From an uncultured Verrucomicrobiales bacterium (lineage in GTDB: Bacteria; Verrucomicrobiota; Verrucomicrobiae; Limisphaerales; CANJSG01): a stretch of 6,757 bases of DNA. A program made the position numbers and the translations under genes. This document shows positions 2 to 6,757 of this stretch, in pieces. How positions within the stretch are numbered: position 1 is the first letter of the stretch; each line of letters opens with the position of its first letter. Under the pieces are notes generated by a model. That model ran no database searches. It was not told the DNA's origin and was given only the letters and a program-made list of their open reading frames with translations. The stretch covers positions 1 through 6,757 of the forward strand of contig CAMLMI010000256.1 in NCBI GenBank assembly GCA_946480965.1. Direction: 5' to 3'.

Positions 2-3000
2 GCCGCGCTGAAGAAGCACCTTCAAGCCTTGGTCGCCGCCGAGGGCGCGGCGCAGTTCAACGCCCAGCTCAAGCTCCTCGGCCAGTCCGCCTCCAGCTAC
101 CTCGACCTCTGCGACACCCCGGCCAAGTGCGAGGAATACCTCAACCGGTTGACGGTGCAGCTCGAAGAGCTGGAGGGCGCGTTCGCCGGGTTCGAGGAAT
201 ACACCGTCCAGCTCGCCGAGCGCCGCACGGAACTCTACGAGGCCTTCGAGCAGCGCAAGCTCGCGCTTGTCGAGCAACGGAACAAGCGCGCCAACGCGCT
301 CCTCTCCGCCGCCGAGCGCATCCTCAAGGTCATCCAGAACCGGCTCGCGGGCTTCAAGTCGCTGGAGGAGATCAACACCTACATGGCCTCCGACCTGATG
401 GCGGCCAAGGTGCGCGAGACCATCGGCCAGCTGATGGAGCTAGGCGATTCGGTGAAGGCCGACGATCTCCAGGGCCGGCTCAAGTCCGTGCAGCAGGAGG
501 CGGTGCGGACCCTGAAGGACAAGCAGGAGCTGTTCGTCGATGGCGCGGCCGTCATCCAGCTCGGCAAGCACAAGTTCAACGTCAACACCCAGCCGCTGGA
601 CCTCACGGTCGTGATCCGCGACGGCGTGCCGAACCTTCACCTGACGAGCACGAAGTATTTCGAGCCCATCGCCGACGAGGCGTTCCTGGCCACGCGTTCG
701 GTCTGGGATCAGGAAGTGGTCTCGGAGAACACGACCGTCTATCGCGCCGAATACCTCGCGTGGCAGATGCTGCGGAGCCTAGACTCTGGTAGCCGCCGAG
801 GTAACGAGGCGGATGGAAGCGCATCAGGCTCGAACGAAGTCCGCCTCCTCACGTCGGCGGCTACGAGCCTCGAAACTTTCCTCGCCCTTTCCGAAGACCA
901 GCGCCTCGCCGCCGTGCAGGAGTTCATGGGCGCGCGTTATCAGGACGGCTACACCAAGGGCCTCCACGATCTCGACGGTGCCCGCATCTTCGCCGTGTTG
1001 GCCGAAACGCATCTGGCCCTGCAGCGCGCCCGGTTCCGCCCCGAGGCCCGCGCTTGCGCCGTGGTCTATTGGACGAAGTTCTGCCCCGAGGAAACCCGCA
1101 CGCTCTGGACCGCGAAGCTCAAGGCCTTCGGCCAACGCAACCGTCTCTTCCCCGGCGATCCGATCCAGCAGGACTACGTCGCCGCGCTCCAGCGGCTCAT
1201 CGCGGAGTTCCTGAAAGCGCAGCCGTTGTATGGGGAAGCCCTCGCCGCTGAAGCCGGTGAATACCTGTTCCACGAGTTGAGCGAGGGCGAGACCTTCACC
1301 GTCACGCGCGAGGCCGACCACTTGGCCACCGCTTTCCAGCAGCACCTCGTGACCAAGGGCCACGACGACACCTTCGCCGCCGCCCGTGCCGCGTTGAACG
1401 GGCATCCGTCGAGCGAACTGGAACTGGTGCGCGACTGGGTGAAGGGGTTTCTTCTGAACCGCGCCACGACGGAATCGCGAAGCCACGAAGCTTCGGGCGT
1501 CCCCCTCACCCGTCCTGCGGACACCCTCTCCCCCACTGGGGGAGAGGGCCGGGGTGAGGGGGCTGCCGCCCGTTCGACCAGCCACCTCGAAGAAGCCACC
1601 GCCATCCTCTTCTGCGGCGACGCCCTGCCCCGCACGCCGGTCCATGCCGAATCGCGCCGTGTGCTCGAAGCCCTGCGCGGCGCGCACCCGCGCCTCGACG
1701 GCAGTCGCTACACCTTCGACTACCTCGACTTCACCGACCGGCTCCGGAGCTTCGAGCGCGACGTCGTGCCCCGCTTCGAGGCCTTCCACCGCTTGAAGCA
1801 GAAGCTGCTGGAGCGCGAGAAGGCCCGGCTGCGCCTCGATGAGTTCAAGCCGCGCGTCCTCTCGTCCTTCGTCCGCAACCAGCTCACCGACCGCGTCTAT
1901 CTCCCGATGGTCGGCGACAACCTGGCCAAGCAGATCGGCGCGGCCGGAGCGGCCAAGCGCACGGACCTGATGGGCTTGTTGCTCCTCATTTCCCCGCCCG
2001 GCTACGGCAAGACCACGCTGCTCGAATACGTCGCCAGCCGCCTCGGCATCGTCTTCATCAAGATCAACGGCCCCGCCATCGGCCACGCCGTCACGTCGCT
2101 CGATCCCGAGGAGGCGCCCAACGCCGCCGCCCGCGAGGAGGTCCAGAAGCTGAACCTCGCGCTGGAGATGGGCGACAACGCGTTGATCTGCGTGGACGAC
2201 ATCCAGCACTGCAACCCCGAGTTCCTCCAGAAGTTCATCTCCCTCTGCGACGGCCAGCGGAAGATCGAGGGCGTCTGGCGCGGCCAGCCCCGCACTTACG
2301 ACCTGCGCGGCCGCAAGGTCGTCGTGGTCATGGCGGGCAACCCCTACACCGAGAGCGGGCAGAAGTTCAAAATCCCCGACATGCTCGCGAACCGCGCCGA
2401 TACCTACAATCTCGGCGACATCATCGGCGGCAACGCCGAGTGGTTCGAGGCCAGCTACCTGGAGAACGCGATCACGTCGAACGCCGTTCTCGCCCCGTTG
2501 GCCAACCGCAGCCAGCAGGACGTGCGCGCCTTCGTCCGCATGGCCACGACCGGCGAGCGCAGCACCGACGGCTTCGAGGGCAGCTATTCTTCGAACGAGG
2601 TGGAGGAGATCCTCTCCGTGATGACCAAGCTCGTGGCCATCCGGAAGGTGGTCATGCGCGTGAACCAGGAATACATCGCCTCCGCCGCCCAGGCCGACGA
2701 ACACCGCACCGAGCCGCCCTTCAAGCTCCAGGGTTCCTACCGCAACATGAACCGGCTGGCCGAAAAGGTCGTCGCCATCATGAACGACGACGAGGTCCGC
2801 GCCCTCGTCATGGGCCACTACCGCGGCGAGTCGCAGACGCTGACCACCGGGGCGGAGTCGAATCTGCTCAAGTTCAAGGAAATGATCGGCGCGCTCGCGC
2901 CGGAGGAATCCGCGCGGTGGGACGAGATCAAGAAGAGCTTTCGCCGGAACCAGTTCACCAAGGGCGCGGACTCGTCCGATCCCGTCGGCCGCGTCGTCGC

Positions 3001-3670
3001 GCAACTGGCGCTCTTCCAGAGCGGCCTCGAGACCATCGGCCAGACGCTGCACAGCGGCCTTTCCCGCGAACCGGCCCCGCTGCGGCTGGACCTCGCACCG
3101 GTCGAGCGCAGCCTCGGCGCCATCGAAGCCGCATTGCAGAAACCGCCCGCGCAGCCCGTCGCCGTGCCGACCTCCGTGGTGCTGGATCTGGCTCCCGTGG
3201 CCAAGGGCCTGGAATCGCTTCAAGCCGCCTTGACCGAGCATTTGAATCGTCCCGCTCCGGCACCGACACCGGTCGTGGTCCCGGCCGAAGCGCCTGCCGT
3301 GGGCCGCGAGTTGGGCGAAGGGTTCCAGCGCCTCGGCGAACAGCTTTCGCAGGCCATCCACACCGTGCAGACGGCCAAGACCACGGACAAGGTGGACAGC
3401 CTCTCGCACGAGTTGGAGATGATCCACAGCACGCTCGCCAGCCTGAAGGATCTGTCGCGCCAGCAACGCGACCACCTCCGCCAAGCGCAGGAGCTATTGG
3501 CCACCCGCGCCAAGCAGGGCACGGTCGAGATCGAGCTGACGCAGGAGATGCTGGCGAATGAACAGGCGTTCCTAGAGAAGTTCCACCAGGTGCTGGAGCA
3601 GTCGCAGAGGCCGAAGGATGGAAGCACCGGCAAGGAGCCCGGCGGACCACCGCCGTTGCCGAAAGGGTGA
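2..3670 (+). CDS. Large AAA+ ATPase of the 'DNA repair ATPase' (DUF3686-type) family, 5' end outside the window
   Basis: The frame is open from position 2, so the true start lies upstream; the TTG at 29 is only the first start-like codon and is used here as residue 1 for numbering. Residues about 1-165 are charged and predicted coiled coil; about 175-215 form a beta-rich stretch (LGKHKFNVNTQPLDLTVV). The AAA+ core has Walker A PPGYGKTT (656-663, Lys661), Walker B LICVDD (719-724), a sensor-1 Asn in MAGNPYTE (Asn771) and a probable arginine finger in LANRAD (Arg789). A helical lid region follows. From about residue 985 the tail alternates Ala/Pro-rich linker and coiled coil, with an LDLAPV motif repeated at 1020 and 1052. 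I recognise the core as that of large bacterial proteins annotated 'DNA repair ATPase' with DUF3686 (PF12458); their role is not firmly established, and in proteobacteria they often neighbour PspA/YjfJ-like and flotillin-like envelope-stress genes (recalled). Two stretches, residues 252-281 and about 485-517, are low in family character and are encoded by palindromic insertions. Family confidence is high, function low. Confidence 0.88.
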   Translation, partial: AALKKHLQALVAAEGAAQFNAQLKLLGQSASSYLDLCDTPAKCEEYLNRLTVQLEELEGAFAGFEEYTVQLAERRTELYEAFEQRKLALVEQRNKRANALLSAAERILKVIQNRLAGFKSLEEINTYMASDLMAAKVRETIGQLMELGDSVKADDLQGRLKSVQQEAVRTLKDKQELFVDGAAVIQLGKHKFNVNTQPLDLTVVIRDGVPNLHLTSTKYFEPIADEAFLATRSVWDQEVVSENTTVYRAEYLAWQMLRSLDSGSRRGNEADGSASGSNEVRLLTSAATSLETFLALSEDQRLAAVQEFMGARYQDGYTKGLHDLDGARIFAVLAETHLALQRARFRPEARACAVVYWTKFCPEETRTLWTAKLKAFGQRNRLFPGDPIQQDYVAALQRLIAEFLKAQPLYGEALAAEAGEYLFHELSEGETFTVTREADHLATAFQQHLVTKGHDDTFAAARAALNGHPSSELELVRDWVKGFLLNRATTESRSHEASGVPLTRPADTLSPTGGEGRGEGAAARSTSHLEEATAILFCGDALPRTPVHAESRRVLEALRGAHPRLDGSRYTFDYLDFTDRLRSFERDVVPRFEAFHRLKQKLLEREKARLRLDEFKPRVLSSFVRNQLTDRVYLPMVGDNLAKQIGAAGAAKRTDLMGLLLLISPPGYGKTTLLEYVASRLGIVFIKINGPAIGHAVTSLDPEEAPNAAAREEVQKLNLALEMGDNALICVDDIQHCNPEFLQKFISLCDGQRKIEGVWRGQPRTYDLRGRKVVVVMAGNPYTESGQKFKIPDMLANRADTYNLGDIIGGNAEWFEASYLENAITSNAVLAPLANRSQQDVRAFVRMATTGERSTDGFEGSYSSNEVEEILSVMTKLVAIRKVVMRVNQEYIASAAQADEHRTEPPFKLQGSYRNMNRLAEKVVAIMNDDEVRALVMGHYRGESQTLTTGAESNLLKFKEMIGALAPEESARWDEIKKSFRRNQFTKGADSSDPVGRVVAQLALFQSGLETIGQTLHSGLSREPAPLRLDLAPVERSLGAIEAALQKPPAQPVAVPTSVVLDLAPVAKGLESLQAALTEHLNRPAPAPTPVVVPAEAPAVGRELGEGFQRLGEQLSQAIHTVQTAKTTDKVDSLSHELEMIHSTLASLKDLSRQQRDHLRQAQELLATRAKQGTVEIELTQEMLANEQAFLEKFHQVLEQSQRPKDGSTGKEPGGPPPLPKG
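781..864. mobile_element. REPIN-like inverted pair of GTAG-headed palindromes inserted in frame in the ATPase gene
   Basis: Unit 1 is GTAG (789-792) followed by a hairpin with CCGCC (793-797) and GGCGG (808-812). Unit 2 is the same in reverse, ending in CTAC (861-864), with CCGCC at 841-845 and GGCGG at 856-860. The outer 11 bases, GTAGCCGCCGA at 789-799, are perfectly complementary to 854-864, and GAGGCGGA at 806-813 pairs again with 840-847. The middle, 814-839, is unpaired. The hexamer GAGCCT occurs at 775-780 and again at 865-870, exactly 90 bp apart, as expected of a target duplication around an 84-bp insert. It encodes residues 252-281, rich in Ser, Gly and Asn, between otherwise well-structured sequence; removing 90 bp joins MLRSL directly to ETFLAL and keeps the frame. 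GTAG-headed palindromes in inverted pairs are the hallmark of REP/REPIN sequences mobilised by RAYT transposases; no RAYT gene is in this window. The duplication could be coincidental. Confidence 0.72.
1481..1579. mobile_element. C/T-G/A-rich double palindrome inserted in frame in the ATPase gene
   Basis: An outer stem pairs CCCCCTCACCC (1501-1511) with GGGTGAGGGGG (1552-1562), 11 bp without mismatch. Inside it lie a small hairpin, GTCC (1512-1515) with GGAC (1519-1522), and a second perfect 11-bp stem, CCCTCTCCCCC (1524-1534) with GGGGGAGAGGG (1538-1548), loop ACT. The hexamer AGCCAC at 1481-1486 recurs at 1580-1585, 99 bp apart, a multiple of three; this suggests the limits of the insert but is weaker support than at the first element. 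It encodes about residues 485-517, including SPTGGEGRGEG, between charged helical sequence and the segment starting SHLEEATAIL. The CCCTCACCC...CCCTCTCCC...GGGAGAGGG pattern resembles a hairpin repeat scattered through many GC-rich bacterial genomes (recalled, not searched). The exact boundaries are uncertain; that a palindromic element lies here is clear. Confidence 0.68.
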
Positions 3671-3715
3671 AGCGAATGAGCTCCCGCAATTTCAGCCGCG
3701 GAGCGGCGACAGATC

Positions 3716-3739
3716 GTAGCCCACAGCGTGAGCTGTGGG
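3716..3739 (+). repeat. GTAG-headed palindrome, 8-bp stem
   Basis: GTAG at 3716-3719 is followed directly by CCCACAGC (3720-3727), loop GTGA and GCTGTGGG (3732-3739), a perfect 8-bp stem. It lies 46 bp past the ATPase stop codon. The GTAG head and size match the other REP-like units in the window, but its arms and four-base loop differ, so it is probably a separate family. No T-run follows, so it is not an obvious intrinsic terminator, although the hairpin could still protect the 3' end of the ATPase transcript. Confidence 0.65.
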
Positions 3740-3869
3740 ACGATTCACTTCGTCATGCCAAAGCTCCGGAGGAGCGACAGAACTTCATCCAGTCGGCTGA
3801 ACCGACCGCAAGCACCACAATCTCACGGTCGGGAAGTATCCGAAGTCGCTTGGAATACGCCCGGATCGA

Positions 3870-3935
3870 GCAACCTGAAAGGTTGCCATCCATTAGCCGG
3901 GGGTTGAGGAGCGCGCAGCGCGACGACACCCCCGG
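3870..3935 (+). repeat. Two-hairpin dispersed-type repeat, copy 1 (forward)
   Basis: A first stem, GCAACCT (3870-3876) with AGGTTGC (3880-3886) and loop GAA, is followed by CATCCATTAG and a second, longer stem: CCGGGGGT (3897-3904) with ACCCCCGG (3928-3935). The interior of the second stem holds an extra 4-bp helix, CGCG (3912-3915) with CGCG (3919-3922), loop CAG. The same arrangement is found in reverse orientation at 4044-4099, with one mismatch over the 22 bases from CAT to the GGGGGTTGAG stretch. That two-copy agreement makes this a true repeat and not chance structure. Confidence 0.75.
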
Positions 3936-3955
3936 TGCGATCTCCCCGACGAACC

Positions 3956-3972
3956 GCATCGCGCAGCGATGC
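3956..3972. repeat. Palindrome, 7-bp stem
   Basis: GCATCGC (3956-3962), loop GCA, GCGATGC (3966-3972), without mismatch. It sits between the two inverted copies of the larger two-hairpin repeat and may be part of the same composite element. Confidence 0.5.
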
Positions 3973-4003
3973 CATCAAAGCAACACCGGGATGGACGGCG
4001 ATG

Positions 4004-4020
4004 GCACCCCGTTGGGGTGC
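4004..4020. repeat. Palindrome, 7-bp stem
   Basis: GCACCCC (4004-4010), loop GTT, GGGGTGC (4014-4020), without mismatch. Like the hairpin at 3956-3972 it has a 17-nt total length and a three-base loop, and lies inside the span bounded by the inverted two-hairpin repeats. Confidence 0.5.
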
Positions 4021-4043
4021 GCCCTGAAACGGGGCCGTCTTTC

Positions 4044-4099
4044 CCGGGGGTGTCGCTGCGCTCAACCCCCGGCTAATAGATGCCAACCCTCCGGGTTGG
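4044..4099 (-). repeat. Two-hairpin dispersed-type repeat, copy 2 (reverse)
   Basis: Read on the minus strand this repeats the copy at 3870-3935: a hairpin of CCAACCC (4083-4089) with GGGTTGG (4093-4099), the spacer CATCTATTAG, then the long stem CCGGGGGT (4044-4051) with ACCCCCGG (4065-4072). Its long-stem interior is about ten bases shorter than in copy 1, and the small hairpin differs in both arms while staying complementary, so structure is kept while sequence drifts. The two copies face each other across about 108 bp. Confidence 0.75.
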
Positions 4100-4126
4100 A
4101 GGCTCCCGTTCAACAGCAGCCTCCAA
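4096..4126. repeat. 9-bp inverted repeat overlapping the preceding hairpin
   Basis: TTGGAGGCT (4096-4104) is exactly complementary to AGCCTCCAA (4118-4126), with 13 bases between. Its left arm shares TTGG with the hairpin at 4083-4099, so the two stems cannot both form fully in one molecule. It may be incidental. Confidence 0.4.
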
Positions 4127-4203
4127 GCAAGAAACCGGTTCAACGGAGGACACTGCTCGGTCCCTTCGTCGCCTCTTCGCTCCACTCCGGCTCCTCCTCC
4201 CTA

Positions 4204-4315
4204 GTAGGGCGGTCTGCCAGACCGTCACGTAGCGCAGGCTGCCAGCCTGCGGTCGTCATGAATTTTTCCCGACCTGGCAGGTCGGGCTACCTGACGGGCC
4301 AGCGGCCCGTCCTAC
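4204..4315. repeat. Symmetrical cluster of four GTAG-headed 19-nt palindromes (REP/BIME-like)
   Basis: Each unit is GTAG plus a 19-nt palindrome with a single central base. Forward: unit A, GTAG 4204-4207 then GGCGGTCTG-C-CAGACCGTC (4208-4226, one G-T pair); unit B, GTAG 4229-4232 then CGCAGGCTG-C-CAGCCTGCG (4233-4251). Reverse: unit C, 4268-4286 then CTAC 4287-4290, read on the minus strand as CCCGACCTG-C-CAGGTCGGG; unit D, 4293-4311 then CTAC 4312-4315, read as GACGGGCCG-C-TGGCCCGTC. A and B are 2 bp apart, as are C and D; 16 bp, 4252-4267, separate the halves. The outer six bases of the arms differ in every unit but stay complementary, while the CTGCCAG centre is kept in three of four. This fits the GTAG-headed REP sequences bound by RAYT transposases and their inverted BIME arrangements. 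It ends 16 bp before the next start codon, so it may lie in that gene's leader. Confidence 0.82.
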
Positions 4316-4331
4316 TCGCCACCCTCACCCC

Positions 4332-5183
4332 ATGAAAAACCTCAAGGCCAAGCTCCAGTCCCTCCGCCAGCGCGCGGAGCAGTTGCAACAGGTGGTCGAG
4401 AGCGCCCCGGCGCGGGCCGAACGGCTGCGCGGCGCGGTCCACACCGCCGCCGGGCAGTTCCAGCAGCTCCGCTCCGAGGTGCAGGGCACCGTCTCCGCCC
4501 TGCGGATGAACGACGACTCCCAGATGGCCGCCGCGCTGGTCGAGATCGGCGAGAGCGAATCCGTCTTCCTCGCCGCCGGTTATCATCTGACCGGCGTGGA
4601 CATGGAGCCCGGCATGGCGCCGCGCCTCCTCGTGCGTTTGGAGAAGCTGGACGAGGTGCGCGAATCGGTGCTGGTCCGGCTCCAGAACGAGAACCGCACC
4701 CGCCCGACGATCTACGCGCTGCTCTCCGCGATGCAGAAAGCCGAGGCCACGGCCGCCTCCGTCGAACTGCCGGGACTGGAATATTCGCGGCTGACCGTCC
4801 ACGTCGGCCCCATCCCTTCGATCCAGATCGGCTGGCGGCGCACGGACGAACCGGAGCCGGAGCGTCCCGCCGTTCTGGTCTCGGCTCCGGTCATGGCCCA
4901 ACCGGCTCCACCTCCCCTGCCCGGCTCCGGCAGCCCGGCTTCGTTCTTCACCCCCGCCGAACCGGAGTTGCCGGCTCCCGCACCTTCGCGCCCGGCTTCT
5001 CCGGTAACGACCACGGTTCCGGTTGAACCAGTCCGTTCCCGCCCCAGCCCGACTCCCCAGCGGTTCTCGCCCTTGGTCCTGAGTTCTTCGCCCAAGCCCT
5101 CCAGTTCGTCCCCCGGATCGACCGGCGATTGGCGCAAGGACGCCTTGGCGAAGTTCAAGCAGATGCCCGCGCCCAAGGGTTGA
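4332..5183 (+). CDS. Uncharacterised 283-residue coiled-coil and proline-rich protein
   Basis: I do not recognise the family. Residues 1-57 are charged and Gln-rich, predicted coiled coil. Residues about 58-172 look like a compact mixed alpha/beta domain, starting DSQMAAALVEIGE and ending near IQIGWRRTDE. Residues about 173-262 are a Pro/Ser/Ala-rich, probably disordered linker with many PAP and PSP steps. The last 20 residues return to a short charged helix (DWRKDALAKFKQMP), possibly a docking peptide. There is no signal peptide or membrane segment, so it is probably cytoplasmic. ATG at 4332 is chosen because coiled coil starts at once and no better start lies upstream; there is no evident Shine-Dalgarno sequence, the leader being C-rich and preceded by the REP-like cluster. 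It follows the large ATPase on the same strand, and both carry coiled coils and Pro/Ala linkers, so a partner or adaptor role is possible but is inference only. Coding is supported by compositional regularity and clean domain layout. Confidence 0.8.
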   Translation: MKNLKAKLQSLRQRAEQLQQVVESAPARAERLRGAVHTAAGQFQQLRSEVQGTVSALRMNDDSQMAAALVEIGESESVFLAAGYHLTGVDMEPGMAPRLLVRLEKLDEVRESVLVRLQNENRTRPTIYALLSAMQKAEATAASVELPGLEYSRLTVHVGPIPSIQIGWRRTDEPEPERPAVLVSAPVMAQPAPPPLPGSGSPASFFTPAEPELPAPAPSRPASPVTTTVPVEPVRSRPSPTPQRFSPLVLSSSPKPSSSSPGSTGDWRKDALAKFKQMPAPKG

Positions 5184-5250: not shown

Positions 5251-6757
5251 TCACTGCGCACCGACCGGCTGGTAGGCCCAGCAGAGGTCATCGGGATCGG
5301 TCGCGGGTGCGTCCTTGGAATACGCCTTGGTGCCCAAAGCCCCGCCGTCGTCCCGGCGATTGATCCCCAGCGACCAGAGACGGAACCGCCCGTCGGCCGA
5401 GCGTTCGTAGCGGAACGCCTCGCCGGTGTAGGGATCGGGCAACGCCTCCGCCAAGTAGGCGGGCGTGAGTTCCGCCAACGCCGCCGGATACGCGCCCTTG
5501 GCCAGATGGAAGCGCTCCAGCGCGATGGCGGTGCGCGCGACGCGGAGTTCGGACAGGACTCGGAGCGTCTTGTTGGTGGCATTGTTAACCGCAGGAAAGA
5601 TTTGGTCCGCCAAGATCCTGCTAGGGTTCCGGATGCCATCTCCCTCCCCCATTCGAGGAACCGCCGAATCGCTGGAACCCTCCATCATTCCCACAAGATC
5701 CTGCTTGGCTTCCTGAGTCGCGGGATCATTGGGCCGCCGACCGGCAACAACATCCGAGTAGCGGTTCAACCGGATGACGTTTCGATAGACGATGAATCGG
5801 GCGAACCGAGCAGGAGCCGTCGGAATGGCATTCCCCATGGAGAATTCAGCGAACATCCCAACTTTGGCCGGATTCCCCACCACGTCGAGAAGCCCGTCCG
5901 TTCCCAACAACCGCTCCCCTTCCAGGCCTCGTCGCATTGCGCCCTCGACATCACTGGCACCGAGCGCCGCTTCCAAGCGCTTCAGTTCCGTCTCGGTCCA
6001 AACACGGTGTTTCAGTCCCTCCCAAATCGGGCCATGTCCCAAACCTTGGACGGCGTAGCCCACCAAGCAACTGATCAACAGCGGTTCTTCCTCCATGACT
6101 TCCGCCAGCCGAAGGATCGTCAAGACGTCTCCCAGGGCGGCGGAGCCCTGTCCCGTCTGGGCCAAGGCTCCGCCGCGCACGGCCAAGAGTTGTGAAATCC
6201 CCTTCATCGGAGCCAGATGCGGCAGCAGCGCCGAAAACGTGTCCTCGTAGCGGATCGGAAACCGCGCACTCGGCCGGGCCAGCGCCTCCCGCAACAGGGC
6301 CAGTTGCGGGTCCGCATAGCGCAAGGTTTCCAGCAAGCCCTCCGCCGTATCGGCCGCCGCCACTGCATTGGTAAACTTCTTGTCGTCACGGAACGCCTGC
6401 TGAAGCGCGGCGGCATCCAGCGGCCGCTGCTTGAAGGCGGCGGTTCCCCCGTCCCGACCGACGCTGTCCGGCAACTTCGCCAAATCGATCGTCGCCCGGA
6501 TCTCGTCCCAAGCGGCGGCACGGTTGACGGAGTCTCCGGAAAACAAGTGAAGCATCGGTGCGAAGAATGGAGCCATCGCCACGTTCTCTTCGTCCGGAAC
6601 GCTTCCCGGAAGCAGATCGGTTATCGACAGCTTGACCCCATCGGCCACCAGTTCGGCGCGATACCGCTCCCAAGCCATTTGGGCCCGGACATTCGCAACG
6701 CTGACCACCAGCGCGATGGGCAGGGCGATGCCGAGAAGCAGCACATAGGCGGGCCCC
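5251..6757 (-). CDS. Membrane-anchored hypothetical protein with pseudopilin-like C-terminal motif, 5' end outside the window
   Basis: The frame stays open to the right edge (GPAYVLLLGIALPIAL...), so the GTG at 6744 is probably an internal valine of a membrane helix and not the start; numbering here takes that codon as residue 1, giving 497 visible residues. The first ~18 residues are a hydrophobic helix, followed by WERYRAEL and a long, mainly helical region that would lie outside the cytoplasm. Residues about 401-467 carry a pattern known from type II secretion pseudopilin (GspG-like) ends and from many verrucomicrobial and planctomycete hypothetical proteins: a helix ARTAIALERFHLAKGAYP, then LPDPYTGEAFRY, then FRLWSLGINRRDDGG. 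The DP/TG and RRDDGG stretches resemble the calcium-site loop of GspG, but no prepilin peptidase site is visible, and the protein is far longer than a pseudopilin. It converges with the neighbouring gene and is probably independent of it. Function unknown. Confidence 0.85.
   Translation of the reverse strand, partial: GPAYVLLLGIALPIALVVSVANVRAQMAWERYRAELVADGVKLSITDLLPGSVPDEENVAMAPFFAPMLHLFSGDSVNRAAAWDEIRATIDLAKLPDSVGRDGGTAAFKQRPLDAAALQQAFRDDKKFTNAVAAADTAEGLLETLRYADPQLALLREALARPSARFPIRYEDTFSALLPHLAPMKGISQLLAVRGGALAQTGQGSAALGDVLTILRLAEVMEEEPLLISCLVGYAVQGLGHGPIWEGLKHRVWTETELKRLEAALGASDVEGAMRRGLEGERLLGTDGLLDVVGNPAKVGMFAEFSMGNAIPTAPARFARFIVYRNVIRLNRYSDVVAGRRPNDPATQEAKQDLVGMMEGSSDSAVPRMGEGDGIRNPSRILADQIFPAVNNATNKTLRVLSELRVARTAIALERFHLAKGAYPAALAELTPAYLAEALPDPYTGEAFRYERSADGRFRLWSLGINRRDDGGALGTKAYSKDAPATDPDDLCWAYQPVGAQ

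Follow-up and report, generated by a model that had tools for sequence, protein, structure and literature searches.

The stretch of DNA analysed here, 6,757 nucleotides in length and referred to below as the window, raises the question of how a palindrome comes to stand in frame within the gene for an AAA+ ATPase, and what becomes of such an insert once it is there. The sequence-only reading of the window had described the palindrome and a 6-bp direct repeat around it (GAGCCT at 775-780 and 865-870, 90 bp apart), and the placement, the coordinates and the repeat all prove to be as described, with the frame of the ATPase gene open across the element (Table 1). It had also stated that the protein gains residues 252-281; about 30 extra residues are indeed present, but this numbering is valid only when counted from the TTG at base 29. 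The 76 bp at 789-864, which run from GTAG to CTAC, are a REPIN, that is, an inverted pair of GTAG-headed REPs, since each arm has its own GTAG start and its own CCGCC/GGCGG stem with a loop of about 10 nt. The inverted repeat as a whole is slightly longer (786-813 and 840-867; 28 nt, 86% complementary, 26 nt spacing), and the RNA fold predicted for 775-870 has a free energy of -47.8 kcal/mol (z = -4.31), a stability reached by one of 200 shuffled sequences. When the flanking repeat is stretched to nine bases, GAGCCTAGA on the left and GAGCCTCGA on the right match at eight of nine positions, and at the same place in the ATPase gene of a related locus, L001, the repeat is a perfect 9 bp (GAGCCTCGA). 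Between the window and L001 each arm is identical at 25 of 25 positions, against 62% identity in the loop and 80% in the ATPase gene; since double identity equal to that of the arms is found at 1.8% of places in this gene, constraint on the two arms is only suggested.

Table 1. Features of the window that bear on the insert, with positions counted from the first base of the window
Feature	Position	Strand	Basis or remark
AAA+ ATPase gene, host of both inserts, 5' end beyond the window	2..3670	+	open frame; Pfam AAA, AAA_5
Direct repeat, left copy, GAGCCTAGA	775..783	+	not general across the REPIN family
REP arm A, GTAG-headed	789..813	+	exact arm pattern multi-copy in relatives
REPIN loop, fast-changing, 26 bp	814..839	+	62% identity to L001
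REP arm B, GTAG-headed on the minus strand	840..864	-	exact arm pattern multi-copy in relatives
Direct repeat, right copy, GAGCCTCGA	865..873	+	sequence
Second palindrome, in frame at site 2 of the ATPase	1496..1567	+	inverted repeats 1496-1511/1552-1567 and 1524-1535/1537-1548

The product of the host frame exceeds the Pfam cut-offs for AAA and AAA_5 and represents part of a long AAA+ ATPase, most of whose listed homologues have about 1,800-1,900 aa; the full-length homologues P0001 and P0005 combine DUF3686, DUF7902 and AAA domains. Against PADLOC the ATPase gives a single weak match, to LmuB at 17.9 bits. The two other genes of the window (4332-5183 on the plus strand, 283 aa, and 5251-6744 on the minus strand, about 497 aa) are without a match at the thresholds set for Pfam, NCBIfam and PADLOC. 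The stretch from the ATPase gene to the next gene (3671-4331) is dense in inverted repeats, for example 3871-3908/4061-4098 and 4203-4245/4274-4316, and the Rfam Acido-Lenti-1 RNA (RF01687) matches there at 3694-3739 on the minus strand, at a palindrome that begins GTAGCCCACAGC. Elsewhere, an IS200/IS605-type transposase gene has two RF01687 copies on either side of it, with orientations that alternate (L058, 1263-2195), and two adjoin a Y1 transposase match (L062, 1158-1360); the Acido-Lenti-1 "RNA" may itself be a REP-like element.

Copies of the REPIN were counted in relatives of the window's genome, reached through homologues of the ATPase (15 loci), and 12 genomes were searched, all from Verrucomicrobia/Verrucomicrobiota and all metagenome-assembled, with G001 the nearest. 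The 84 bp at 781-864, which the sequence-only reading had expected to be repeated and not unique, are matched in nine of these 12 genomes at E <= 0.01, with at least 54 matches in G001 and at least 72 in G005, many places in this palindrome being scored on both strands. The 25-base arm pattern in its exact form is present in five of the 12 and in nine of the 50 genomes of the family of G001; among the matches listed it occurs 43 times in G001, five in G002, 16 in G004, 114 in G005 and twice in G012, and a reversed control of the pattern gave no match in any of the 12 genomes. The second palindrome of the ATPase is unrelated to the REPIN at site 1 and is also multi-copy, with matches in nine of the 12 relatives.

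To be classified as intragenic, a copy had to have both flanks coding in one frame with no stop across it, under a coding model of the flanks and with edge cases excluded. The copies classified are those in stretches around the search matches and not every copy in a genome; four contigs of G001 (C24, C125, C167 and C277), each with 84-bp matches, lie outside this set. A count of copies in coding sequence had been suggested at the outset, and it finds many of them intragenic in some relatives: 16 of 23 in G001 (two of the 16 being the ATPase copies that led there), 20 of 59 in G005, 4 of 17 in G021, 1 of 14 in G004, none of 7 in G050 and 3 of 7 in G019. Random places put through the same test were intragenic in 343 of 600 cases in G001, 372 in G005, 323 in G021, 412 in G004, 412 in G050 and 257 in G019. 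Paired copies in G001 are intragenic in 13 of 16 cases, an excess over random that is not significant (13/16 vs 343/600, p = 0.07), and the key point for this genome is that intragenic copies are not depleted; G005 shows a depletion (p = 4e-5), and G004 taken with G050 a strong one (p = 2e-9). Intragenic placement as a rule for the whole REPIN family was considered and rejected, as it varies from genome to genome.

All 19 of the host frames scanned (13 from G001 and six from G005) have Pfam domains. In G001 they encode valyl-tRNA synthetase, another class I tRNA synthetase, a CMAS-type methyltransferase, Lnt, DUF7133 proteins, GST, AcrB and others, and in G005 EPSP synthase, MutS, a FixG-like protein, a kinase-TPR protein and others. 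Several inserts lie inside a domain match; that of valyl-tRNA synthetase, for example, falls within Anticodon_1. The elements are entered in two frames (GSRR.. and VAAE/VAAD..) and left in three, and the third entry frame reads the TAG.

Orthologous places with and without the element can be compared directly in these genes. Valyl-tRNA synthetase is matched in 44 of the 50 family genomes, and among 30 aligned loci the insert is found in G001 only; the 29 others are aligned without it, twelve of them joining directly at the insertion point. For the methyltransferase (43 of 50 genomes matched, 30 loci aligned), the insert is present in G001 and in decayed form in G021 and G019, with a remnant-like stretch in G016, while three of the other loci contain other inserts and 23 have short linkers. 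Inserts at orthologous places are shared in the kinase-TPR gene (G002, G004, G005 and G021), the PSD1 and CMAS genes (G001 and G021), AcrB (G001 and G005), DUF7133 (G001, G002 and G019) and the ATPase (the window and G001), and these were searched for through recognisable arms, so that decayed ones are missed. In the kinase-TPR gene the REPIN stands at one point in all four genomes (L188 at 13084; also L068 and L227), with the order of the arms reversed in G005, which indicates either an inversion or a separate insertion at one point.

In an alignment of 121 rows of the ATPase (the query and the 120 best of 1,280 homologous proteins), we defined a large insertion as at least 12 residues above the median length in at least two rows, and among the first ~1,000 residues of the query such insertions recur at two loops only, residues 257-297 (site 1) and 485-526 (site 2). 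The inserts of both sites were sorted by peptide pattern into seven classes, F1 comprising the window REPIN and its near relatives. Site 1 contains F1 in 22 rows, F3 in 10, F4 in nine, F5 in seven, F6 in three and F7 in two, with none in 23 and other inserts in 45, and site 2 contains F1 in 22, F2 in 19, F6 in one and F7 in one, with none in 72 and others in six; the sorting is rough, and some rows counted as other resemble members of the classes. Both head and tail are present in 41 of the 44 F1 calls, and the DNA was seen for F1, F3, F4 and F7, all of them palindromes or hairpins. L001 has F1 at both sites, and the window has F1 at site 1 and the unrelated palindrome at site 2.

Seven of the proteins (P0001-P0005, P0007 and P0008) are 95.9-98.3% identical outside both sites, and within this group site 1 is occupied by F1 in four, by F6 in one and by nothing in two, and site 2 by F1 in three, an F1 remnant in P0004, F2 in two and nothing in P0008; the inserts of P0002-P0008 are known as peptides only. 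The fewest changes needed to account for the two sites are 6 and 8 on a 24-row tree in which some forks are weak, and 36 and 29 on a quick tree of all 121 rows. Homologues free of the insert had been predicted to read MLRSL-ETFLAL-like, and those found read close to this, WQML-AAT/GAS/NAS/GAF-KLEDFLA. The same residues in distant homologues had been held to speak against an insertion; 22 of the 121 rows do have F1 at site 1, but these inserts are themselves of REPIN type, with boundaries and loop lengths that vary, and for this reason we read them as further insertions, although some of them may still go back to shared descent.

A gene that could move the element was also sought, as the sequence-only reading had proposed, and G001 proved to have a RAYT-like gene with members of the REPIN family on both sides. 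The general model PF01797 has matches in all 12 genomes, three of the five in G001 being IS200/IS605 transposases, and none of the 15 Y1 stretches that it marks in G001 and G005 has an arm within six mismatches. The REP-specific model NF047646 finds the RAYT-like gene on contig C379 of G001 (5496-5897), between two REPINs of the family (5367-5444 and 6008-6083), with a frame that stops at the TAG of the downstream REPIN's GTAG. The gene scores 63.5 bits, under the model's cut-off of 80, and its protein contains MPDHLHLLW, in which we see the HuH motif of RAYTs. There are seven NF047646 matches in G001 in total: the RAYT-like gene on C411 is above the cut-off and has no arm in the surrounding stretch examined, that on C116 has one arm near it with five mismatches, and that on C190 and a fragment at C379:11550 have no arms near. 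The REPIN family shows these traits of the GTAG REP superfamily: a tagged stem-loop, an inverted and foldable pair, a dispersed multi-copy occurrence (in the relatives) and, on C379 of G001, a RAYT-like gene between copies of its own REP.

In a search with the C379 protein, relatives at E <= 1e-20 are found in eight of the 50 family genomes, and identity of at least 70% is confined to G001 itself, G004 (73%) and G021 (78% over 83 of 134 residues). These three genomes also have the highest arm counts of the 50 (43, 16 and 21, respectively, the next being 9), a coincidence that random ranking would give with a probability of 1 in 19,600, in a test that was picked after the data had been seen. 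The RAYT gene of G004 has variant arms on both sides, and on contig C170 of G021 an arm (411-435) lies beside the RAYT match (109-360). In G025, G027, G041 and G048 the RAYT relatives are 57-62% identical and there are zero copies of the arm pattern. G005, which is not among the 50 family genomes, has 114 arms, and its nearest RAYTs are just 53-56% identical to the C379 protein; several of them are flanked by a sister REP that begins GTAGCAGC, and at a distance of about 1.3 kb from one of these RAYTs there is an intact REPIN of the family. The flanking of the G005 RAYT genes by a sister REP, of the form GTAGCAGCGGACGT.AGTCCGCTC (L347, on contig C70, and L366), suggests a joint divergence of RAYT and REP.

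To account for the element, its distribution and the variable loops together, we consider it highly probable that a REPIN moved by a RAYT enters genes in this lineage, and that two tolerant loops of the ATPase gain, lose and exchange palindromes, those that stay decaying to a linker. The 76-bp unit is a REPIN, non-autonomous and made of two GTAG-type REPs in an asymmetric inverted arrangement; a cognate RAYT most probably moves it, and we infer that the RAYT on C379 is the one that does so. In this lineage of Verrucomicrobiota, insertion would occur both within and between genes. One of the three entry frames hits the TAG of GTAG and the other two are free of stops, so that an insertion with a net length that is a multiple of three could be translated and kept in a tolerant loop, and the insert peptide is presumably made and tolerated. 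The two loops of the ATPase would repeatedly gain REPINs and other palindromes and quickly lose or exchange them, and the inserts that stay would decay into ordinary linker. Against this explanation count the score of the RAYT below the cut-off, the other RAYT-like genes of G001 without clear arms, the combination in G005 of the most copies with distant RAYTs, the rarity of intragenic copies in G004 and G050, and the lack of any general target duplication across the family.

Alternatives differ in the age that they give to the inserts and in the process behind their turnover. An old shared linker, inserted once in an ancestor, selected since then as a protein linker or as a hairpin in mRNA or DNA, and no longer mobile, would fit the orthologous inserts common to several genomes, which are about 68-93% identical in DNA, the arms that stay identical between the window and L001 in a gene of 80% identity, and the absence at both ATPase sites, over the 121 rows, of the F1 element in another frame. 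We regard it as improbable, because at both sites near-identical proteins vary between F1, an insert of another class and none, the site is empty in all 29 other valyl-tRNA synthetases aligned, the arms of the kinase insert occur in opposite orders at one point, and the conservation of the arms, matched at 1.8% of gene places, is only suggested. Recombination between strains, with insertions few and old and the loops varying through the exchange of alleles, is in our judgement unlikely, though it keeps some weight: flanks that are 95.9-98.3% identical whichever class they enclose, and at least two different F1 boundaries at site 1, speak against it but would still allow short tracts, and in its favour related proteins repeatedly show one class at a given place, the close relatives P0002-P0008 being known from peptides alone. 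We infer that the turnover of the loops is one of insertion and loss rather than of allele exchange.

The direct repeat invites a different explanation, in which the element is inserted like a MITE, by a transposase that duplicates 6 or 9 bp of its target, and the eight of nine bases repeated in the window and the perfect repeat in L001 are what it would leave. The sequence-only reading had likewise taken the repeat as a sign of insertion, yet this does not carry over to the family: the longest repeat shared by the two flanks has a mean of 4.35 bp over 43 paired elements, where re-paired flanks give 4.26 +- 0.13, and repeats of at least 6 bp occur in six of the 43, against 3.9 +- 1.7 expected. 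Target duplication as a general mark of the family was rejected for want of any such excess, the fixed-length terminal direct repeats of MITEs are not seen over these elements, and the family is linked to a RAYT-like gene, all of which makes MITE-like insertion very unlikely; at the window site itself a duplication may be real, given the perfect repeat of L001. That short repeats were misjoined during assembly might be suspected of sources that are metagenome-assembled genomes, but the same gene and frame continue on both sides of the insert in separate assemblies and orthologous inserts recur across different genomes, and we find an artefact scarcely credible.

Beyond REPIN insertion into tolerant loops, it is conceivable, and we offer it only tentatively, that the two loops of the ATPase are standing docking places at which REPINs and other classes arrive, decay and replace each other fast, perhaps under selection for variety. 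Were this so, both loops would be the most variable part of a protein that is otherwise 96-98% identical, and the turnover of repeats would rank among the main sources from which the lineage draws new protein sequence. REPs are named for their extragenic position, and the sampled copies of G001 lie mostly in genes, including those for valyl-tRNA synthetase and Lnt. Filled, empty, shared and decayed sites, together with a candidate RAYT, make it directly testable whether mobile palindromes add segments to bacterial proteins, and a single gene, that of the ATPase, shows the speed with which such segments are exchanged.

A translated REPIN had been put forward as a new route to protein insertions, and in this respect the claim was anticipated: Di Nocera et al. 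(2013; PMC3733652) described translated intragenic GTAG REPs, a verrucomicrobium among their hosts. Among the papers listed, as judged by title and abstract and with subscription papers mostly outside them, we found no other work on REPs of Verrucomicrobia or on the turnover of translated REPs. What we did not find described is a protein, here the ATPase, in which two fixed loops exchange several classes of insert, or a genome, here G001, whose sampled REPIN copies lie mostly inside genes. The classical extragenic REP, as defined in PMC12306157, a paper whose main text does not contain the terms "Verrucomicrobi" and "intragenic", seldom overlaps protein-coding regions, and the window copy and 16 of 23 copies in G001 lie within them.

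Among known systems, the REPINs of Pseudomonas described by Bertels and Rainey (2011; PMC3116915) are inverted REP doublets with a predicted hairpin, a link to RAYTs and signs of excision. The present family resembles them in the doublets and the RAYT linkage and differs in its placement, since by that paper's count the commonest 16-mers overlap genes in just 14 of 1,067 cases. The palindromic elements of Rickettsia, as summarised in PMC3733652, are in-frame palindromes within genes that likely encode working proteins, and the present inserts are like them in this; however, the intragenic RPE-4 and RPE-6 of R. conorii bear a CGTC tag, not GTAG, and the same account gives the CGTC group no association with a transposase. 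The intragenic REPs of Di Nocera et al. are of GTAG and CGTC types, the GTAG ones being most numerous in Opitutus terrae (Verrucomicrobia); their Table 1 gives GTAG REPs a stem of 5-13 bp, a loop of 2-20 nt and a tag at one end, and more than half of the intragenic inserts are dimers or groups that encode 20-30 residues. As that paper presents them, the intragenic GTAG REPs share with the present family the tag, the inverted dimers, the in-frame position in genes, the addition of 20-30 residues and the presence of several copies in DNA repair genes, and O. terrae belongs to the phylum studied here. In the same account REPs are mostly intergenic and their insertion sites differ, except in recB of two Xanthomonas species, whereas in the family studied here the sampled population of G001 is mostly intragenic, orthologous sites are shared among genomes, and several classes of insert meet at two loops of the ATPase.
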